Shown one piece after another: positions 32,726 to 40,319 of a DNA stretch of 64,000 nt; positions within the stretch are counted from its first letter, which is position 1, and each line of letters begins with the position of its first letter. The notes under the pieces are model-generated. The model was not told the DNA's origin and searched no databases. It saw only the letters and a list, made by a program, of their open reading frames with translations. The stretch lies in the NCBI RefSeq assembly GCF_014191875.1, contig NZ_JACHXD010000001.1, forward strand, positions 248,001 through 312,000. The letters are read 5' to 3'. Origin of the DNA: Pseudoduganella violacea (GTDB taxonomy: Bacteria; Pseudomonadota; Gammaproteobacteria; Burkholderiales; Burkholderiaceae_D). A program made the position numbers and the translations under genes.

Positions 32726-32853
32726 GATGGTTCCTGTTTGCTTGCGGTAATGTCCTTGCAGACTAACAGAAATTCCGGCTGCAGCTTTTTAACGCCAAGT
32801 GGGTGCGTTACAATATTTGGGAGATGGTTGATCTATTGCGCAGGAGAGTTGGA

Positions 32854-33015
32854 ATGTTAACAACTGAAATGAAGCGCCAGATTTTCCTGCGACTGCGCGA
32901 CGAAAATTATCAAGCCAGTCTGCGGCTTGAAGGACTGGTGCCCGATAAGACCGACGCGAATCAGTCCACCGTCAAGCCGACCGTGGCTACGCCCAAAACC
33001 ACGTATGTCCGATAA
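32854..33015 (+). CDS. YhfG-family Fic antitoxin
   Basis: This 53-residue protein starts at ATG 32854 with AGGAG at 32842-32846; the open frame extends upstream without support. The block FLRLRDENYQASLRLEGL matches the YhfG family, the small partners of Fic proteins. Residues 22-27 read S-L-R-L-E-G. This fits the (S/T)xxxE(G/N) inhibitory motif, whose Glu obstructs ATP binding in class I Fic antitoxins such as VbhA. Its last 11 bases overlap the Fic gene. The region is visibly lower in GC than its neighbours, suggesting acquisition. Confidence 0.85.
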   Translation: MLTTEMKRQIFLRLRDENYQASLRLEGLVPDKTDANQSTVKPTVATPKTTYVR

Positions 33016-33598
33016 GTATGGCAGGAGCCAAGATGCGCTCTATTGCTATCCACACTCCAATGTCCTAATCAATAAACTCGGTCTAACCGAAGCGGATGCC
33101 CTCCAAGCGGCGGAAATTGAGCTCACGCAGACACGCATCAGTCAATATGAGCCCGACTTTAACAATATTTCCTTCTCGGCCTTACGCGCCATCCATTTCC
33201 ACCTCTTTCAAGATCTCTATAACTGGGCCGGCGAGTTACGGACAATAGACATTAGCAAAGGCAGCACACGGTTTGCGAACGTCAATCGGATCGAACCAGA
33301 AGCGAACAATCTCTTTCGTCAACTTAAACAGGAAGCTTATCTCATCGGTTTACCGCGCGAGCAATTTGTCGCGCGCCTAGCCCATTATTACGGCGAACTG
33401 AACGTGATCCATCCATTCCGTGACGGCAATGGGCGCGCCCAGCGTTTGTTATTTGAAGTGCTCAGCATCAATGCCGGGTATGCACTTCGCTGGGAACCGA
33501 TTCGCCGCGAAGAATGGGTAGGCGCCAACATTGCCGCCTACAACTGCCAGCTTGCGGCACTGACCGCTCTTCTCGACCGCGCATTCATGCCCATTTAA
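33005..33598 (+). CDS. fic: Fic-domain protein adenylyltransferase (toxin)
   Basis: The 197-residue protein carries the intact Fic active-site motif HPFRDGNGR at residues 136-144 and the flap region TRFANVNRI near 89-95. The N-terminus, YCYPHSNVLINKLGL, matches the E. coli Fic type. Fic enzymes transfer AMP from ATP to target hydroxyls; bacterial toxin types modify topoisomerases or other hosts of the family. There is no internal inhibitory helix at the ends, consistent with inhibition in trans by the upstream YhfG-like protein. Start ATG 33005 overlaps the antitoxin end; the longer frame upstream is rejected. GC is low compared with flanks. Confidence 0.9.
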   Translation: MSDKYGRSQDALYCYPHSNVLINKLGLTEADALQAAEIELTQTRISQYEPDFNNISFSALRAIHFHLFQDLYNWAGELRTIDISKGSTRFANVNRIEPEANNLFRQLKQEAYLIGLPREQFVARLAHYYGELNVIHPFRDGNGRAQRLLFEVLSINAGYALRWEPIRREEWVGANIAAYNCQLAALTALLDRAFMPI

Positions 33599-33635: not shown

Positions 33636-35246
33636 TTAGTTCAACGCCAGCCGCGCGGCGCGGTAGCCCCACCACGAGGCTTCCTCAAACACGGAGAAGC
33701 CACTGAGGTCGGAGTGGGCGAAAAGGATGGGACCATCCAGCTCGCGCAGGGCGCGCAGGCCGGCGTCGCTGCGGAAGCCCGGGGACGGGGAAGCCATGGC
33801 ATGGCCGCGCAGTGTGATGTCGACGCGCTCGACGCAGGAGGCGAAGTTGGCGCCGTAAGCGGCTTTGAGGTCGGCGCCGGCCAGCGCCAGCAGCTCTTGC
33901 GGGCTGGCCGAGATCATCCAGCGCCGCGCGCCGGAAGGGGTGCGATCGGATAGCGCCACGTAGGAACTGAATACGGTCTTTTCCGGCGGACGCACGCGAA
34001 TGTCCTGGTGGGTGGAGACAACATAGCCCAGCCCTGGTTCGCCGTACACCACATTGTCCCAGGAGAGCGGCGTCTGCCCCCTCTCTTCGGGGAAGCGCTT
34101 GAGCAGAAAGTTCGCCACCATCCACGGCGCGTACACGGGAATATGCTGGGCGGGGTTGAAGCCGTAGCTGGCGATGTTCTCCACCACGCGCGCCGCCACG
34201 TACAGCGGCATGGCGCAGATGGCTTTGCGCGCGCGCACCAGGAAGCTGCGCGGCTGGCCGCCTTCGAGCGCGAAGCAGAGCGCTTCCACGCCCTTGTCCG
34301 CACGCTTCAGTGATACGGCTGTGCCCTTCAGGCGCTGCGCGCCGGCGCGCCGTTCCAGGCCGGAAGCCAGGGTCTGCAAGCCGCCCGGCCAGGTGAGCCA
34401 GGCGCCCTGCCCGGCATTGGCTGCTTCGCCGCCACGGCCGCAGAAGTAGTGCAGGCCGGCCCAGGCGGATACCTTGTCGTAGCGCGCGCCGTAGTCGTCG
34501 CGGCAGCAGTAATTCAAGTACCAATGCAGGCTGGGCGAGCGGTAGCCTTTCTGTTCTATCCATTGCTTGAAGCTGATGGCGTCGAGCTTGAGCCAAGCCG
34601 CATCGTCCGAGGAATTCACGGTGGGGAAGGCGAAGACGCGCTTGCCGTCGCTGCCGCGCACCTGGCGCAGTTGCTCGACTTCGGCGAAGAAGCGTTTGTG
34701 CTCTTCCAGCTCCTGCGCTGGAACGCCTTCGTGCGGTACCAGCCCTTCCTGCCATTGGCCATTGAACAGCAGGCGCTCTTCCGGCGCGTGCAGCACGGCG
34801 CGTTCGTCGTAATACGGTCTTTGCGCCATGGCGTCGCGCTGGATCACGCCCAGATCGGTCAGAATCTCGCGCACGTGGAAGCATTCCTGCGTCGGCAGCG
34901 GCAGATAGTGGGCACCGGTCGGAAAAGCCAGCTCGCCGAAGCTGCCGCCCGCCGCGTTGCCATAGGGCTGGGGGCCGTCGAGCATGAGGAAATCTCGCTT
35001 GCCTTCCTTCGCCATCTTCCACGCCGCCGTCAGTCCGGCGATACCGGAACCAAGAATCATCACATCGGTTTCCAGCGTTTGCGATGGCGGCGGCAGGGCT
35101 TTGCGGTCGCGCAGGAGGTGACCTTCGTCGCGGCCCGGCATATTGACGTTGGGCGTGATTTCCTGCCAGCGTAGAAAGCCCGCCACGCCGGCGGCGGCGG
35201 TCGCGCCGCTGGCGCCGGCCCACAGCAGAAAGGAGCGGCGCAGCAT
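33636..35246 (-). CDS. FAD-dependent oxidoreductase (amine-oxidase-like) with Tat-type signal
   Basis: The 536-residue flavoprotein begins MLRRSFLLWAGASGATAAAGVAGFLRW, a twin-arginine RRxFL motif plus hydrophobic stretch, so export in folded form is likely. The dinucleotide fold follows at VMILGSGIAGLTAAWKMAKEGK (about residues 62-83). The C-terminal part GPILFAHSDLSGFSVFEEASWWGYRAA is like the FAD-capping end of amine oxidases. Its start shares one base with the stop of the membrane aminopropyltransferase upstream (TGATG), so the two are coupled. Given that partner and SpeD nearby, polyamine oxidation is a reasonable hypothesis, but the substrate is not visible in the sequence. Confidence 0.8.
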   Translation of the reverse strand: MLRRSFLLWAGASGATAAAGVAGFLRWQEITPNVNMPGRDEGHLLRDRKALPPPSQTLETDVMILGSGIAGLTAAWKMAKEGKRDFLMLDGPQPYGNAAGGSFGELAFPTGAHYLPLPTQECFHVREILTDLGVIQRDAMAQRPYYDERAVLHAPEERLLFNGQWQEGLVPHEGVPAQELEEHKRFFAEVEQLRQVRGSDGKRVFAFPTVNSSDDAAWLKLDAISFKQWIEQKGYRSPSLHWYLNYCCRDDYGARYDKVSAWAGLHYFCGRGGEAANAGQGAWLTWPGGLQTLASGLERRAGAQRLKGTAVSLKRADKGVEALCFALEGGQPRSFLVRARKAICAMPLYVAARVVENIASYGFNPAQHIPVYAPWMVANFLLKRFPEERGQTPLSWDNVVYGEPGLGYVVSTHQDIRVRPPEKTVFSSYVALSDRTPSGARRWMISASPQELLALAGADLKAAYGANFASCVERVDITLRGHAMASPSPGFRSDAGLRALRELDGPILFAHSDLSGFSVFEEASWWGYRAARLALN

Positions 35247-36757
35247 CAGCGTATGCTCCGCCGCCAGTCGCGCTCGAATTCATTCACGAGGGACTGGGTG
35301 TTGAGGCGGTTGGGTTCCATCGGCAGCGGCTTCATATCGGGCGGGAAGCTGAACATGGCGCGCGTGGTTTCCGCATTCAGGTAGCGCATCGGCAGGCGAT
35401 ACGACTCGGGCGGCTTGTACTCCTGCTGCGGCGAGGCGAGGATAAAGCCCCATTCGCCGAACGAAGGAACGTAAGCGTGGTAAGGACTGGTGCGCAGGCC
35501 CACTTCGCGCAGCGTGGCGTCGATGGTCCAGAAAGCATGGGGCGCGAAGAAGGGCGAGGTCGATTGCACCACCAGCAGGCCGTTCGCCGCCATATGCTGC
35601 TTCACCATGCCGTAGAAAGGCACGGAGTACAGCTTGCCCAGCGCGAAGCTGGAGGGATCGGGGAAGTCGATGATGACGGCGTCGAACATCTCTTCCGTGT
35701 TTTGCAGCCAGATTGCCGCGTCGGCATTGATGACGCGCACGCGCTTGTCGGCAAAGGCGCCGTGGTTCAGTTTCACCAATTCTTCGCGCCGGGCGAAAGC
35801 CTGGGTCATGGCCGGATCGAGATCGACCAATGTGACCTGCTCCACCTGTGGATAACGCAGCACTTCGCGCAGGGCCAGACCATCGCCGCCGCCCAGCACC
35901 AGCACGCGGCGCGCCCAAGGCAGCGCTTCCATGGCCGGATGCACCAGCGCTTCGTGGTAGCGGTATTCGTCGCGCGAGGAGAACTGCAGATTGCCGTTGA
36001 TGTAGAGCCGCAGGTCGTCCTTCCAGCGCGTGATGACCAGGCGCTGATACGGCGTGGTGGTGGAGTACACGATCTCGTCGCCGAACAGGCCATGCTCGCC
36101 GAACTGCGTCATGCGGTCGGCGCCGATGAAGCCGAACACCAGCGCCACCAGCACGGCGCTGGCGCGCAGCAGGCGTCCCGTCAGATTTTCCAATTCGCGG
36201 CGGAAGACGTAGATGGTCCACAACGCCACGCCCACGTTCAGCATGCCGAACATGAAGCCGGTGCGCACCAGGCCCAGATGCGGCGCCAGCACCAACGGGA
36301 ACAGCAGGGACACGGCCAGGGCGCCCAGATAGTCGAAGGTCAGCACCCGGCTTACCAGTTCGCTAAAGCCGGTCTGGCGCACGTTCAGGGCGCGCATCAC
36401 CAGCGGCACTTCCATGCCGACCATGGCGCCGACCATGAACACCATCGCATACAGCATGGTGCGGAAGGGCGCCCCCATCCACGAGAAGGTCAGGAACAGC
36501 AGGGCCGCCGAGACGCCGCCGATCAGGCCCACGGCCAGTTCGATGTCGACGAAGCGGGCCAGCACGTCCTCGTCCTTCACGTATTTGGACAGGTGGGCGC
36601 CGACGCCCATGGCGAACAGGTAGCAGCCGATGATGGTGGAGAACTGGAGGATGGAATCGCCCAGCAGATAGCTGGCGAGCGCCCCGGCGATCAATTCGTA
36701 GGCCAGCCCGCAGGATGCGACCACGAAGACGGACAGGATCAGAATCTTTTTGGTCAT
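35246..36757 (-). CDS. Membrane-embedded spermidine synthase-like aminopropyltransferase
   Basis: The 503-residue protein has about seven transmembrane segments in residues 1-215 (first MTKKILILSVFVVASCGLAYELIAG). A soluble spermidine-synthase fold follows, with TTPYQRLVITRW, LYINGNLQFSSRDEYRYHEALVHP, the decarboxylated-SAM site VLVLGGGDGLALREVLR and LVDLDP. The catalytic-region DAVIIDFPDPSSFALGKLYS follows. Residues for aminopropyl transfer look present. Acceptor amine unknown. It precedes the Tat-exported oxidoreductase and is divergent (69-base spacer) from the operon that ends with speD, which would supply its aminopropyl donor. Confidence 0.88.
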   Translation of the reverse strand: MTKKILILSVFVVASCGLAYELIAGALASYLLGDSILQFSTIIGCYLFAMGVGAHLSKYVKDEDVLARFVDIELAVGLIGGVSAALLFLTFSWMGAPFRTMLYAMVFMVGAMVGMEVPLVMRALNVRQTGFSELVSRVLTFDYLGALAVSLLFPLVLAPHLGLVRTGFMFGMLNVGVALWTIYVFRRELENLTGRLLRASAVLVALVFGFIGADRMTQFGEHGLFGDEIVYSTTTPYQRLVITRWKDDLRLYINGNLQFSSRDEYRYHEALVHPAMEALPWARRVLVLGGGDGLALREVLRYPQVEQVTLVDLDPAMTQAFARREELVKLNHGAFADKRVRVINADAAIWLQNTEEMFDAVIIDFPDPSSFALGKLYSVPFYGMVKQHMAANGLLVVQSTSPFFAPHAFWTIDATLREVGLRTSPYHAYVPSFGEWGFILASPQQEYKPPESYRLPMRYLNAETTRAMFSFPPDMKPLPMEPNRLNTQSLVNEFERDWRRSIR

Positions 36758-36826
36758 TTACGTGCTTTTGCTCTAATATGTTTCTATGCAAGCAAGTTTG
36801 ACACATACTCAGCCACGGGGAAAGAC

Positions 36827-37213
36827 GTGTACGCCATCCTGAATTATCTGATCCACCTGTTTCTGGCTGCCTTTTTATTGGGCGTGTTCTTCAAAGCGTA
36901 CACCTGGATGACGCCCTACGATGAAGTTCTGCTGATCCGCCAAGGCAATCACGCCGCGGCCCTGTCGCTGGGCGGCGCCCTGATCGGCTTCTCGCTGACG
37001 ATCGCTTCCAGCCTGCTGCACACCGCGAATTACCAGCAGTTCTTTGCCTGGGCCGGCGGCGCCATGGTGGTGCAGGCCTTGGCCTATGCCGTGACCACGC
37101 GCCTGCTGCGCATGGCCAAGGACCAGATCGAGGCCGACAACAGCGCCTTCGGCGGCCTGCTGGGCGCGATTTCGCTCTCCATCGGTGGCATCAACGCCGC
37201 CTGCATTTCCTGA
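36827..37213 (+). CDS. DUF350-family membrane protein
   Basis: This 128-residue protein starts at GTG 36827 after GGGGAAAG; the open frame further upstream runs antisense through the aminopropyltransferase and is rejected. Four hydrophobic segments are visible (about 4-22, 42-62, 68-88, 104-122). The DUF350 repeat-like patterns are ALSLGGALIGFSLTIASS and FGGLLGAISLSIGGINAA. DUF350 proteins are small inner-membrane proteins of unknown mechanism. E. coli YjfL, in the yjf cluster with a PspA-like protein and a glutathionylspermidine-synthase-like protein, is a member. First gene of the plus-strand operon. Confidence 0.85.
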   Translation: MYAILNYLIHLFLAAFLLGVFFKAYTWMTPYDEVLLIRQGNHAAALSLGGALIGFSLTIASSLLHTANYQQFFAWAGGAMVVQALAYAVTTRLLRMAKDQIEADNSAFGGLLGAISLSIGGINAACIS

Positions 37214-37241
37214 CACAGAGTATTCAAGCGAGGACCACATC

Positions 37242-38276
37242 ATGGGTATCGGCAGCTTTATCAAGAAGCAGTTTATCGACGTCCTGCAATGGAACGAGGA
37301 GACGGAAGGCGTGCTGGCCTGGCGCTATCCGATGCAGGACGCGGAAATCCAGAACGGCGGCGTGCTCGTGGTGCGCGAATCGCAGGTGGCGGTCTTCGTC
37401 AACGAAGGCCAGATCGCCGACGTCTTCGGCCCCGGCACCCACAAGCTGAGCACCCAGACCTTGCCCGTGCTGACCAACCTGAAAAACTGGGACAAGCTGT
37501 TCGACTCCCCGTTCAAGTCGGACGTGTACTTCTTCAGCACCCGCGTGCAGACCGGCCGCAAATGGGGCACGCAGCAGCCGATCACCATCCGCGACAAGGA
37601 TTTCGACATGATCCGCGTGCGAGCCTTCGGCATGTATTCCTACCGCGTGACGGATGCGCGCAAGTTTTTCACGGAAGTGAGCGGCACACGCGAAGCCTAT
37701 ACCCGCGACGAGGTGGAAGACCAGCTGCGCGGCATCCTGATGGCGACCATGGCCGGTTCGCTGGGCGGCTCGAATATCGCCTTCCTCGACATGGCGGCCA
37801 ACCAGGCCTTGATGGCGCAGGAAGTCAAAGGCGACCTGGCCGATGCCTTCGCCCGTTACGGCATCGGCCTCGATGAATTCAATGTGGCCAGCGTCAGCCT
37901 GCCGGAAGAGCTGCAGGCGGCGCTGGACGAGCGCATCTCGGCCGGCATGAAGGGCGGCCTCTCGGCCGATAAGCTGGGAGGCTTCACCAAATACCAGGTG
38001 GCCAGCGCCATTCCGCTGGCGGCGCAGAACGAAGGCGGCATCGCCGGCATCGGCGCGGGACTGGGCGCGGGCGTGACCATCGGCCAGGCCATGGGCCAGG
38101 CGGTGGGCGCCAGCATGACCCAGGTGGGGGCGCCTACCGCAGCGGCGCCTGCGGTGGCGGACGACTCGATCGAAGCCCGTCTGGGCAAGTTGAAAGCCCT
38201 GCTCGACAAAGGCCTGATCTCGGCGGCCGACTACGACAGCACCAAGGCCGAGCTGCTGAAAAAACTGATAGGTTAA
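37242..38276 (+). CDS. SPFH-domain protein with C-terminal SHOCT domain (YdjI/'virion core protein'-like)
   Basis: This is a 344-residue protein. ATG 37242 has GAGG in front and begins MGIGSFIKKQFIDVLQW, typical of this family. Residues about 30-230 form the SPFH/band-7-like part, with GGVLVVRESQVAVFVNEGQIADVFGPGTHKL, RDKDFDMIRVRAFGMYSYRVTD and a long helix LPEELQAALDERIS. A Gly/Ala-rich linker (GIGAGLGAGVTIGQAMGQAVGA) leads to a SHOCT motif at the end (IEARLGKLKALLDKGLISAADYD). It probably oligomerises on membranes as a scaffold. Located between DUF350 and DUF4178 genes with short gaps. Confidence 0.88.
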   Translation: MGIGSFIKKQFIDVLQWNEETEGVLAWRYPMQDAEIQNGGVLVVRESQVAVFVNEGQIADVFGPGTHKLSTQTLPVLTNLKNWDKLFDSPFKSDVYFFSTRVQTGRKWGTQQPITIRDKDFDMIRVRAFGMYSYRVTDARKFFTEVSGTREAYTRDEVEDQLRGILMATMAGSLGGSNIAFLDMAANQALMAQEVKGDLADAFARYGIGLDEFNVASVSLPEELQAALDERISAGMKGGLSADKLGGFTKYQVASAIPLAAQNEGGIAGIGAGLGAGVTIGQAMGQAVGASMTQVGAPTAAAPAVADDSIEARLGKLKALLDKGLISAADYDSTKAELLKKLIG

Positions 38277-38285
38277 GCGCGTCTG

Positions 38286-39752
38286 ATGCAAGTAGTTTCC
38301 TGCCCCAGCTGCGGCGCCGAAGTCAGCTTCCGCTCGCACGCCTCGGTCATGGCCGTGTGCGAGTACTGCAATACCCGTGTGCTCAAGGATGCCGACGCGG
38401 TCCAGAACCTGGGCAAGATCGGGTCCGTGCTGGAGGATTATTCCCCGCTCTGCCTGAACGCCAGCGGCGTGCTGGGTGGCCGCGCCTTCACCGTGATCGG
38501 CCGCATCCAGCTGCGTTATGCGGCGGGCATGTGGAACGAGTGGTATCTGCAATTCGCCGATGGCGGCAACGGCTGGCTGGGCGACGCCTCCGGCCAGTAC
38601 ACCGTGACCACGCTGCGCAAGCCGGAGGGCGAGCTGCCGGCGTTCGAGCAGCTGGCGCCGGGCCAGCAATACACCGTCGGCAAGGAGCGCTATACGGCGG
38701 CCGACATCCGCAGCGCCGAGTGCAGCGGCGGCCAAGGCGAGCTGCCGTTCAAGGTGGGCGACGGCTGGCAGGCGCGCGTGGCCGACCTGCGCCTGGGCGA
38801 GAGCTTTGTCACACTCGATTATTCGGACGGCGCGCAGCCGCAGCTTTATCACGGCATCGCCGTCACGCTGGGCAGCATGCAAATGCAGCTGCTGCGCGAC
38901 GACGAGCAAATCCGCCGCACGGCGGGTCGCTATCGCGGCAAGCTCGATACGCTGAACTGCCCGTCCTGCGGCAGCGCCATCCAATACCTGCCCGGCCTGA
39001 CCGCGAATCTGGTTTGCCAATCCTGCCGGACCAGCATCGATGCGGCCAGCCCGCAAGCGCAGGTACTGGCTGCCGGCGCAAAGCTGGAGCAGGTGAGCAC
39101 TTCGCTGGCACTGGGCGCCAGCGGCAAGCTGGGAAACCAGGACTACACGGTGCTCGGCATCCTGCGCCGCCAGGACTATGAAGGCAGCAGCTGGACCGAG
39201 TATCTGCTGTACAGCGGCCGCAAAGGCTTTACCTGGCTGGTGGAGACGGACGAGGGCTGGTTCCGCTCCAACGTGATGGACAAGTGGCCCAGCTGGGACG
39301 GCCCGGCCTCCAGCGCCTGCACTTTCGACAAGATCCGATACGCCAAGCTATACGACTACGAAGCCAAGGTCACGTTCGCGGCGGGCGCCTTCAACTGGCG
39401 CGTCAGCGTGGGCGACGAGGCCAAGGTCTACGAATTCAAACAGGGCGTGGTGCAGCTGGCGGCCGAGCTGACGGGCGAGGAATTGAGCTGGTCGCGCGCC
39501 ACGCCGATGTCGCGCGACCAGGTGAAGGCCTGGTTCGGCAAAGCCTATCGCGGCCCGGAACCGGGCGCACCGCTGCTCGACTCGGCGGCGGGCAAGCGCT
39601 ATACCTCGGTCGCCAAGGGCATGATCATGATGCTGCTCGCGATCAATGCGATACCGCTGCTGGCGTCTTTCACCAGCACCTTCATGTACAGCGTGATCGC
39701 CGCGCTGGCGATCTATATTCCCGCCAAAATTCTGGATGCGATGGATAAGTAA
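38286..39752 (+). CDS. DUF4178 protein with two zinc ribbons and C-terminal membrane segments
   Basis: This is a 488-residue protein. Zinc ribbon 1 has Cys6, Cys9, Cys25 and Cys28 (CPSCG and CEYC), and the first DUF4178 unit contains LGGRAFTVIGRIQLRYAAGMWNEWYLQFADGG. A second ribbon (CPSCGSAIQY then CQSC, around residues 220-245) precedes a second DUF4178 unit with LGNQDYTVLGILRRQDYEGSSWTEYLLY. The protein is therefore an internal duplication of ribbon plus DUF4178. Two hydrophobic segments end the chain (MIMMLLAINAIPLLASF and MYSVIAALAIYIPA). DUF4178 function is unknown; the layout suggests a membrane-tethered sensor or adaptor. Confidence 0.85.
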   Translation: MQVVSCPSCGAEVSFRSHASVMAVCEYCNTRVLKDADAVQNLGKIGSVLEDYSPLCLNASGVLGGRAFTVIGRIQLRYAAGMWNEWYLQFADGGNGWLGDASGQYTVTTLRKPEGELPAFEQLAPGQQYTVGKERYTAADIRSAECSGGQGELPFKVGDGWQARVADLRLGESFVTLDYSDGAQPQLYHGIAVTLGSMQMQLLRDDEQIRRTAGRYRGKLDTLNCPSCGSAIQYLPGLTANLVCQSCRTSIDAASPQAQVLAAGAKLEQVSTSLALGASGKLGNQDYTVLGILRRQDYEGSSWTEYLLYSGRKGFTWLVETDEGWFRSNVMDKWPSWDGPASSACTFDKIRYAKLYDYEAKVTFAAGAFNWRVSVGDEAKVYEFKQGVVQLAAELTGEELSWSRATPMSRDQVKAWFGKAYRGPEPGAPLLDSAAGKRYTSVAKGMIMMLLAINAIPLLASFTSTFMYSVIAALAIYIPAKILDAMDK

Positions 39753-39753
39753 G

Positions 39754-39924
39754 ATGGGTAAATTCCTGGTGTATGCGATGGTTGTGACCATCTTCAGCAT
39801 GTCGGCAAGCTGGATCCGCATGTTTTCCGGCGACGAAGGCACGCACGGCGGCAGCGGCAGCAGCTGGTCTTCGCGCACCGGCGGCGGCAGCTGGGGCGGC
39901 GGTGGCGGCGGAGGTCACAAGTGA
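39754..39924 (+). CDS. Tiny membrane protein with Gly/Ser-rich tail
   Basis: This 56-residue protein starts at ATG 39754, one base after the DUF4178 stop. One transmembrane segment (KFLVYAMVVTIFSMSASWI) is followed by a tail of almost only Gly and Ser (GSGSSWSSRTGGGSWGGGGGGGHK). Its TGA overlaps the GTG start of speD as GTGA, so the coding reading is well supported by gene packing. No family recognised. The C-terminal His-Lys could bind metal, which is speculative. Confidence 0.75.
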   Translation: MGKFLVYAMVVTIFSMSASWIRMFSGDEGTHGGSGSSWSSRTGGGSWGGGGGGGHK

Positions 39925-40319
39925 GCGCATACTCACGCACGGACGACCGCCATCTGCCCAGCGGTACGCATTTGCTGGCCGATATGTCGGGCATCGCCGC
40001 GCAGCGCCTGGGCGACTGCAGCGCCATCGAAAAGCTGCTGCGCACCGCCGCCGAGGCGGCCGGCGCCTGCGTGCTGCACAGCCATTTCCACGGCTTCGGC
40101 CCCGGCCAGGGCGTGACCGGCGTGGTGCTGCTGGCCGAATCGCATATCTCCATCCACACCTGGCCGGAGGATGGCTTTGCCGCCGCCGACATCTTCATGT
40201 GCGGCGCGGCCCAGCCTCAGCTGGCCCTGGACCTGCTGCGCGCCGCCCTGCAGCCGGCCCATTGCGAGCTGCACACGGTGCGCCGCGCGCCGCCCCAGCT
40301 GCTGGCGCGCGCCGGTTGA
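39921..40319 (+). CDS. speD: S-adenosylmethionine decarboxylase proenzyme (short prokaryotic class)
   Basis: This 132-residue protein starts at GTG 39921, overlapping the previous stop. The processing site lies in LAESHISIHTWPE. Cleavage between Glu73 and Ser74 would give the pyruvoyl group, and His79 and the HSHFHGFGPGQGVTG segment with its Cys-free active region fit the class 1B enzymes. The product, decarboxylated SAM, is the aminopropyl donor for spermidine synthases such as the divergent gene at 35246-36757. The length (about 130) is normal for this class. Confidence 0.9.
   Translation: MSAYSRTDDRHLPSGTHLLADMSGIAAQRLGDCSAIEKLLRTAAEAAGACVLHSHFHGFGPGQGVTGVVLLAESHISIHTWPEDGFAAADIFMCGAAQPQLALDLLRAALQPAHCELHTVRRAPPQLLARAG

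Follow-up and report, generated by a model that had tools for sequence, protein, structure and literature searches.

The locus at positions 33636 to 40319 of the window (the whole analysed stretch of 64,000 nucleotides, positions 248,001 to 312,000 of contig NZ_JACHXD010000001.1 of Pseudoduganella violacea) raises the question of what a membrane-embedded aminopropyltransferase (APT) modifies when its gene is packed together with genes for an exported flavoenzyme, three proteins of the DUF350, SPFH and DUF4178 types, a 56-amino-acid membrane peptide and the S-adenosylmethionine (AdoMet) decarboxylase SpeD. The predicted proteins were scored against Pfam and NCBIfam models. An earlier note on this DNA had described seven packed genes in a divergent arrangement, and all seven open reading frames (ORFs) were confirmed (Table 1). 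The answer that we favour, with confidence somewhat short of even, is that APT aminopropylates the C-terminal lysine of the small membrane protein encoded in the same operon, within a conserved envelope operon. The 56-amino-acid peptide is the most telling part of the cluster because its C-terminal lysine is invariant.

C-terminal lysine of the tail protein

Relatives were collected by a genome scan with APT, which gave at least 592 stretches, 587 of which were confirmed; the best 80, skewed to close relatives, were kept, and profiles derived from the window proteins were used to seek partner genes within 8 kb of APT. A protein with a lysine-ended tail was encoded in 65 of the 65 relatives having a DUF4178 gene beside APT. 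In 60 of these it was a small ORF directly downstream, bearing a transmembrane (TM) segment and ending in HK (49) or GK (11); in four others (L041, L044, L076, and L077) the DUF4178 protein itself carries the tail and ends in AHK or GHK, and the ORF of L070 ends in RYFGGK. The counterparts of the 56-amino-acid peptide diverge strongly in sequence among phyla, yet they stop on lysine, and the lysine-ended protein may be a single-TM peptide, the tail of the DUF4178 protein, or a lipoprotein. Fifteen of the 80 loci had no DUF4178 gene beside APT; in all eight split-cluster genomes that were searched, a DUF4178 gene was found elsewhere, followed by a lysine-ended peptide. The PspA-type relatives have a lysine-ended lipoprotein whose tail is rich in Ser, Gly, and Arg (FRGK in L120, KSGK in L122, and GGGK in L124); L119 also has a lipoprotein-type protein of this kind (SRGK), and in the PspA-type L125, whose APT locus has no tail, the tail was located elsewhere in the genome (L171). 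A lipobox-like N-terminal site was present in 14 of the 15 long lysine-ended proteins, L149 being the one without.

A fresh set of 30 APT loci from sampled genomes, none of them more than 90% identical across 800 bases to the 80, gave the same picture, with a lysine-ended tail in 30/30. The tail lay in the first stretch in 26 genomes (22 on the first pass and four on closer reading, two of which end in RIK), and in the other four it was located through a DUF350 or DUF4178 gene at another site of the genome (G314, L173; G165, L170; G160, L169; G271, L194). As a control, exported-like ORFs were filtered by the content of G, S, R, H, N, and Y in their tails. At a content of at least 70%, lysine was the last residue in 17 of 21 ORFs of the fresh loci and in 34 of 40 ORFs of the 80 loci; at 60%, the counts were 20/33 and 40/76. 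Among 136 kb of control loci, a single ORF passed the 70% filter; this HK-ended ORF, in L088, encodes the peptide of the window itself.

The charge balance of the 60 small peptides favoured an N-in/C-out orientation in 44, the reverse in two, and neither in 14. The DUF4178 protein of L076, L077, and L173 has a single hydrophobic peak ahead of the lysine tail, which would place the tail outside if the zinc ribbons are assumed to be cytoplasmic; the Psychrobacter versions show more hydropathy peaks than these three. In L076, L077, L131 to L135, and L173, the DUF4178 protein carries a fused Gly/Ser-HK tail at its end, and a Cys-rich stretch, CDPQRENC, lies between the membrane helix and the tail in L076, L077, and L173.

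Topology and active site of APT

The AlphaFold model of APT (predicted local distance difference test score, pLDDT, 88.0) contained seven long helices preceding the catalytic domain, and a hydropathy count in nine other fusions gave seven helices in six and six helices in three. In 60 of 60 homologues, loops 2, 4, and 6 together with the N-terminus held more Lys and Arg than loops 1, 3, and 5 together with the segment after helix 7 (means of 10.1 over 64 residues versus 3.1 over 43 residues). By the positive-inside rule, this bias would place the N-terminus inside and the catalytic domain outside. The catalytic domain is in addition poor in cysteine, with 29 among 14,982 residues (0.19%), 28 of which fall in one column, versus 120 among 6,638 residues (1.81%) in 30 ordinary SpeE proteins; the PspA-type fusions L120, L122, L124, and L125 have no cysteine in this domain. 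Taken with the model, these sequence features indicate that the APT domain probably faces outside the cytoplasm.

The residues Y267, D292, D364, and D367 of APT, which we take to be donor-binding or catalytic, were invariant in 60/60 homologues and common to 30/30 SpeE proteins (motifs GGGD, DxxDP, and the Y of YHE). On the other hand, positions 366, 400, 405, and 433 differ from SpeE. The best fold and sequence matches of APT, the former concentrated on residues 217 to 481, were the Thermus enzymes 1uir and 3anx and the Medicago thermospermine synthase 6bq2. APT passed the NF002956 (PRK03612) model over residues 3 to 500 (696 bits versus a cut-off of 472), and it failed both NF037959, for fusions of major facilitator superfamily (MFS) proteins with spermidine synthase (25.3 bits versus 40), and the canonical SpeE model TIGR00417 (137.3 bits versus 249.55).

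Conservation of the APT TM domain is no less strict than that of the enzyme part, with E21, D34, E73, E116, D142, and N174 invariant in 60/60 homologues. Such residues suggest a putative path or binding site for a cation.

Conservation of the cluster

Near APT in the 80 loci, genes were found for the flavoenzyme (59), DUF350 (61), SPFH (57), DUF4178 (65), and SpeD (54), and all five partners were near APT in 43. The closest relative among the matches listed was L001 of Massilia sp. BJB1822 (APT identity of 99%); L123 and L051 cover one and the same contig stretch and were counted once. When only the 56 flank-complete loci were considered (upstream flank of at least 5.5 kb, downstream flank of at least 2 kb), all five partners were present in 37, at least four in 43, and none in five. 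The clustering of these genes exceeds chance, and the idea of the earlier note that they form one conserved unit was borne out. The note had named a gene order not kept in related genomes as the finding that would speak against it; gene content was kept, and the SPFH gene ran divergently from APT in 32 loci and in the same direction in 25. The other adverse finding that it named, a part of APT and SpeD in ordinary spermidine synthesis only, keeps some probability. The flavoenzyme gene adjoins APT in 54 loci, where, with starts chosen by script, the two overlap by one base in 28 and by four bases in five. The prediction that the flavoenzyme is exported also held: a Tat (twin-arginine translocation) motif, RRx[FLIMV] plus a hydrophobic residue, was present in 49 of 54 relatives, and export via Tat is predicted from it. 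A lipobox-like site was present in 17 of the 54.

Of 299 genomes sampled from the phylum, 31, among them the host genome, encode an APT at E ≤ 1e-60. PspA, absent from the cluster as already noted, had no match (PF04012) in the whole P. violacea genome, and it was present in the sister loci L120, L122, L124, and L125 (129 to 145 bits). The short DUF4178-like protein of L120 had no Pfam match at 0.001, and its label comes from Ravi et al. and from our own reading. APT was the sole profile match at the locus of L119. In the flank-complete loci L032, L037, L045, L048, and L052, APT is solitary and the other cluster genes lie elsewhere in the genome. Distant fused spermidine-synthase-like membrane proteins with different neighbours (87 bits) were seen at L126:4375-5931 and L127:5189-6745; their catalytic domains have 1 and 0 Cys, respectively, the usual GGGDG motif is missing, and no DUF350 or DUF4178 match was found with them.

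Relation to known systems

The operon type is known from genome context. Operons similar to those of the phage shock protein (PSP) system, with polyamine genes and a 7TM-spermidine-synthase fusion, are already in print: the relevant passages of Ravi et al. (2024, mSystems, PMC11237479) describe PspA-CesT operons that hold DUF350, a lipoprotein, DUF4178, and the fusion; in a variant, the PspA-CesT dyad gives way to a band-7+2TM+SHOCT protein, accompanied by an AdoMet decarboxylase and a polyamine oxidase. According to the proposal made there, what these systems monitor is either polyamines or aminopropylation of other substrates; those passages report no experiment on the operon. The actinobacterial variant with DUF4247 was sought in 44 listed plasmid records, none of which came from an actinobacterium. 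The cluster of the window fits the band-7 variant in having a band-7/SHOCT protein (SHOCT just below the cut-off), DUF350, an AdoMet decarboxylase, and a flavin oxidase together, and in the absence of the PspA dyad; with PspA missing, it is not a PSP system proper. The C-terminal lysine rule does not appear in those passages, and the main text of that paper (PMC11237479) nowhere uses the word periplasm. The Bacillus subtilis PspA-Ydj operon shares the band-7 protein and a double zinc-ribbon membrane protein, and differs in having a TPM-domain partner and PspA and in that no polyamine gene is named in the passage on it (PMC11237479).

The Escherichia coli ygiB-ygiC and yjfIJKLM-yjfC genes likewise place a lipoprotein with a low-complexity tail beside a polyamine-attaching enzyme, and yjf also has DUF350 and a PspA-family gene. 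They differ from the window cluster in encoding an ATP-grasp ligase instead of an aminopropyltransferase and in a tail that ends in GG, not K. The peptide-spermidine ligases of E. coli were reportedly described by Pederick and co-workers in 2023. The DUF1190 lipoproteins examined ended in GG in four of four cases (L159:2745-3416, L160:488-1126, L174:255-809, and L175:1414-1971), and their neighbours, where visible, were genes annotated as peptide--spermidine ligase or a GSP_synth match (486.5 bits); in the host genome (G000), no DUF1190 lipoprotein (PF06693) was matched. We regard the GG tails of YgiB and YjfM as an apparently analogous tail system, alike in plan and not members of the same family. 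Polyamine parts on protein lysines are known from hypusine and the silaffins, which concern eukaryotic, archaeal, or diatom proteins, internal lysines, and other enzymes.

The interpretation of the earlier note stood in part. It was right about polyamine-type chemistry at the membrane, about the kinship to the E. coli yjf genes, and about a conserved membrane polyamine unit; the system is less new than it assumed, and the lysine-ended peptide and the predicted outward orientation of APT had escaped it.

Proposed mechanism and alternative explanations

In the favoured reading, SpeD would produce decarboxylated AdoMet in the cytoplasm, as expected from its family. The whole P. violacea genome has a single AdoMet decarboxylase match (PF02675), the SpeD of the cluster, which is therefore the only recognised source of this donor. 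The donor would reach the periplasm-facing APT domain, perhaps via the seven-TM domain of APT itself, in which E21, E73, E116, and D142 are invariant, and the terminal lysine on its flexible tether would enter the active site to give aminopropyl-lysine; the side chain of lysine is an aminobutyl group and resembles half of putrescine. The Tat-exported enzyme of the monoamine oxidase fold may subsequently trim the polyamine side chain or oxidise it, and DUF350, SPFH-SHOCT, and the zinc-ribbon DUF4178 protein may keep the complex at the membrane, taking the position that PspA and its partner occupy in the sister operons. The physiological role could be protection of the envelope. A bolder version, which would also give polyamine chemistry a new place, is possible but doubtful: the periplasmic, membrane-fused APT, fed decarboxylated AdoMet through its own seven helices, would extend the C-terminal lysine of a dedicated exported tail protein by a polyamine arm, the Tat flavin oxidase would trim it, and together with the GG tails this would amount to a tail code in which the last residue, K or G, tells the modifying enzyme.

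Several points weigh against the favoured reading. We infer the lysine to be the acceptor from sequence patterns, and a periplasmic APT needs an exported donor, for which we know of no precedent. Since lysine-ended ORFs were the target of the search, the controls alone guard against bias, and when the tail filter was lowered to 50%, lysine was last in 22 of 145 ORFs of the fresh loci and 57 of 424 of the 80 loci. Seven loci without DUF4178 (L024, L034, L038, L039, L040, L043, and L046) were left out of the follow-up, and the weak fused relatives L126 and L127 have no lysine-ended tail. The flavoenzyme was not found near APT in L120, L122, L124, and L125. As for sidedness, the predicted TM-score (pTM) of the APT model was just 0.64 and the packing of the domains is uncertain, the six-helix hydropathy counts belong to L119, L120, and L123, and the orientation of the tail was tied in 14/60 and reversed in 2/60 of the small peptides. 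Finally, 82 of the 120 SpeE cysteines fall in four columns; with the recurrent columns excluded, our arithmetic leaves 38/6,638 for SpeE versus 1/14,982 for APT.

Alternatively, APT may be a membrane-bound producer of a small free polyamine (of the spermidine, thermospermine, or aminopropylagmatine type) that is exported before being oxidised, with the lysine-ended protein acting as an unmodified structural or regulatory subunit. This is unlikely, although the best matches of APT (1uir, 3anx, and 6bq2) are free-polyamine enzymes. The one PF01276 decarboxylase of the host genome might provide an amine such as putrescine, and since no SpeE exceeded the TIGR00417 cut-off in that genome, the fusion could be its sole spermidine synthase. 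However, the invariant last residue of an otherwise variable protein is left unexplained, and the acceptor-side positions of APT differ from those of SpeE. According to work attributed to Li and co-workers (2019), fusions of this kind reportedly fail to substitute for SpeE in E. coli, and their hosts lack spermidine, which we count against a free product. The same work is said to have found the MFS-spermidine synthase fusion, an AdoMet decarboxylase, and DUF350 together and to have proposed an acceptor other than putrescine, reportedly naming no acceptor and describing no tail protein. Two candidates in the host genome were rejected. Three further PF01564 matches (L082, L083, and L084; 26.5 to 35.1 bits) exceeded the Pfam cut-off of 22.9 and lay far below that of TIGR00417, and they were not accepted as a second, ordinary SpeE; two PF02784 matches, considered for an ornithine decarboxylase of the alanine racemase fold, resemble LysA and an exosortase-linked decarboxylase, names that reflect our own reading.

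Rather improbable, in our judgement, is that the lysine is a recognition or docking mark for the DUF350/SPFH/DUF4178 complex and that the polyamine enzymes act on another target. The tail does accompany DUF4178 or DUF350 where APT sits elsewhere (L169, L170, L171, L173, and L176 to L183), and it is fused to DUF4178 in several lineages. Against this, the DUF350 systems with a ligase and without APT have a GG-ended tail protein (4/4), and the terminus thus appears to follow the chemistry of the enzyme, not DUF350.

We give a similarly low probability to modification of the terminal lysine in the cytoplasm, with helix 7 not crossing the membrane or the tail modified before export and the APT domain facing in. 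As expected from the family, SpeD and the donor are cytoplasmic; the parallel systems of E. coli use peptide-spermidine ligases, which require ATP and so act inside; and six helices were counted in three of nine other fusions. The positive-inside bias in 60/60 homologues, the low cysteine content of the APT domain, the seven helices of the model, and the Tat-exported partner enzyme all argue for the outside. A still more doubtful explanation is that APT aminopropylates an envelope lipid or glycan and renders the surface more cationic, the lysine-ended protein serving as anchor or sensor: the fusion of a transferase to a multi-helix domain, a plan that we take to be like that of MprF, and the membrane-stress type of the partners agree with it, whereas among the top 40 neighbour groups, to the extent that they were legible, no gene for lipid handling recurred beside the cluster, and the terminal lysine is again unexplained.

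Aminopropylation of the terminal lysine, if true, would add a new type to the known protein modifications, and polyamine tagging of envelope proteins would become a family of bacterial modifications; it would also account for the polyamine genes in PSP-like membrane-stress modules, and a large enzyme family would have its annotation corrected. These fused 'spermidine synthases' occur widely and carry the annotation of polyamine enzymes, and the lysine rule gives a directly testable acceptor candidate. The operon type is not itself new; it is the tail rule and the outside-facing enzyme that, if confirmed, would make a new protein-modification system. Literature searches, beyond whose reach most subscription journals lay, returned neither the C-terminal lysine rule nor any work joining aminopropylation with a C-terminal lysine, and a search for a periplasmic spermidine synthase yielded work on free spermine only.

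Gene layout and neighbouring genes

The flavoenzyme and APT genes overlap by one base (TGATG), and the genes of the plus arm are separated by 28, 9, and 1 bases, followed by a four-base overlap between the 56-amino-acid peptide and SpeD. No sigma-70-like promoter was found in 36700-36900, so that expression from the 69-base spacer can only be supposed. The SHOCT match of the SPFH protein (25.1 bits) was just below the cut-off of 27, as was the zinc ribbon of the DUF4178 protein (24.1 bits; cut-off of 29), and SpeD passed TIGR03330 well above the cut-off of 75.65. The Pfam and NCBIfam matches of the flavoenzyme were limited to models for the binding of flavin adenine dinucleotide (FAD) or NAD; its fold is that of monoamine oxidase, and its substrate may be a polyamine.

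Table 1. Features of the P. violacea cluster (window coordinates)
Feature	Coordinates	Strand	Details
FAD oxidoreductase, Tat-type, monoamine oxidase fold	33636..35246	-	536 aa, begins MLRRSFLLWAG
Membrane aminopropyltransferase (APT)	35246..36757	-	503 aa; 7 TM at about 2-211, spermidine-synthase-like domain at about 219-499
Spacer between the divergent arms	36758..36826		69 bases
DUF350 membrane protein	36827..37213	+	128 aa, GTG start; PF03994, 105.8 bits
SPFH/band-7 protein, SHOCT-like C-terminal end	37242..38276	+	PF13421, 253 bits
DUF4178 protein, two CxxC...CxxC zinc-ribbon-like stretches, hydrophobic C-terminus	38286..39752	+	PF13785, 87 bits, two stretches; hydropathy peaks at 454-478
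Single-TM Gly/Ser-tail peptide ending in GGGHK, proposed acceptor	39754..39924	+	56 aa
AAG codon for the C-terminal lysine of the 56-aa peptide	39919..39921	+	Read from the sequence
SpeD, class 1b AdoMet decarboxylase	39921..40319	+	132 aa, GTG start; PF02675, 119.4 bits; TIGR03330, 127.1 bits

Adjoining the cluster, at 32803-33598 on the plus strand, a gene for a YhfG-like small protein (PF10832, 41.8 bits) overlaps a Fic/AMP-transferase gene (PF02661, 67.9 bits), and the cut-off of NF007672 was exceeded in this pair.

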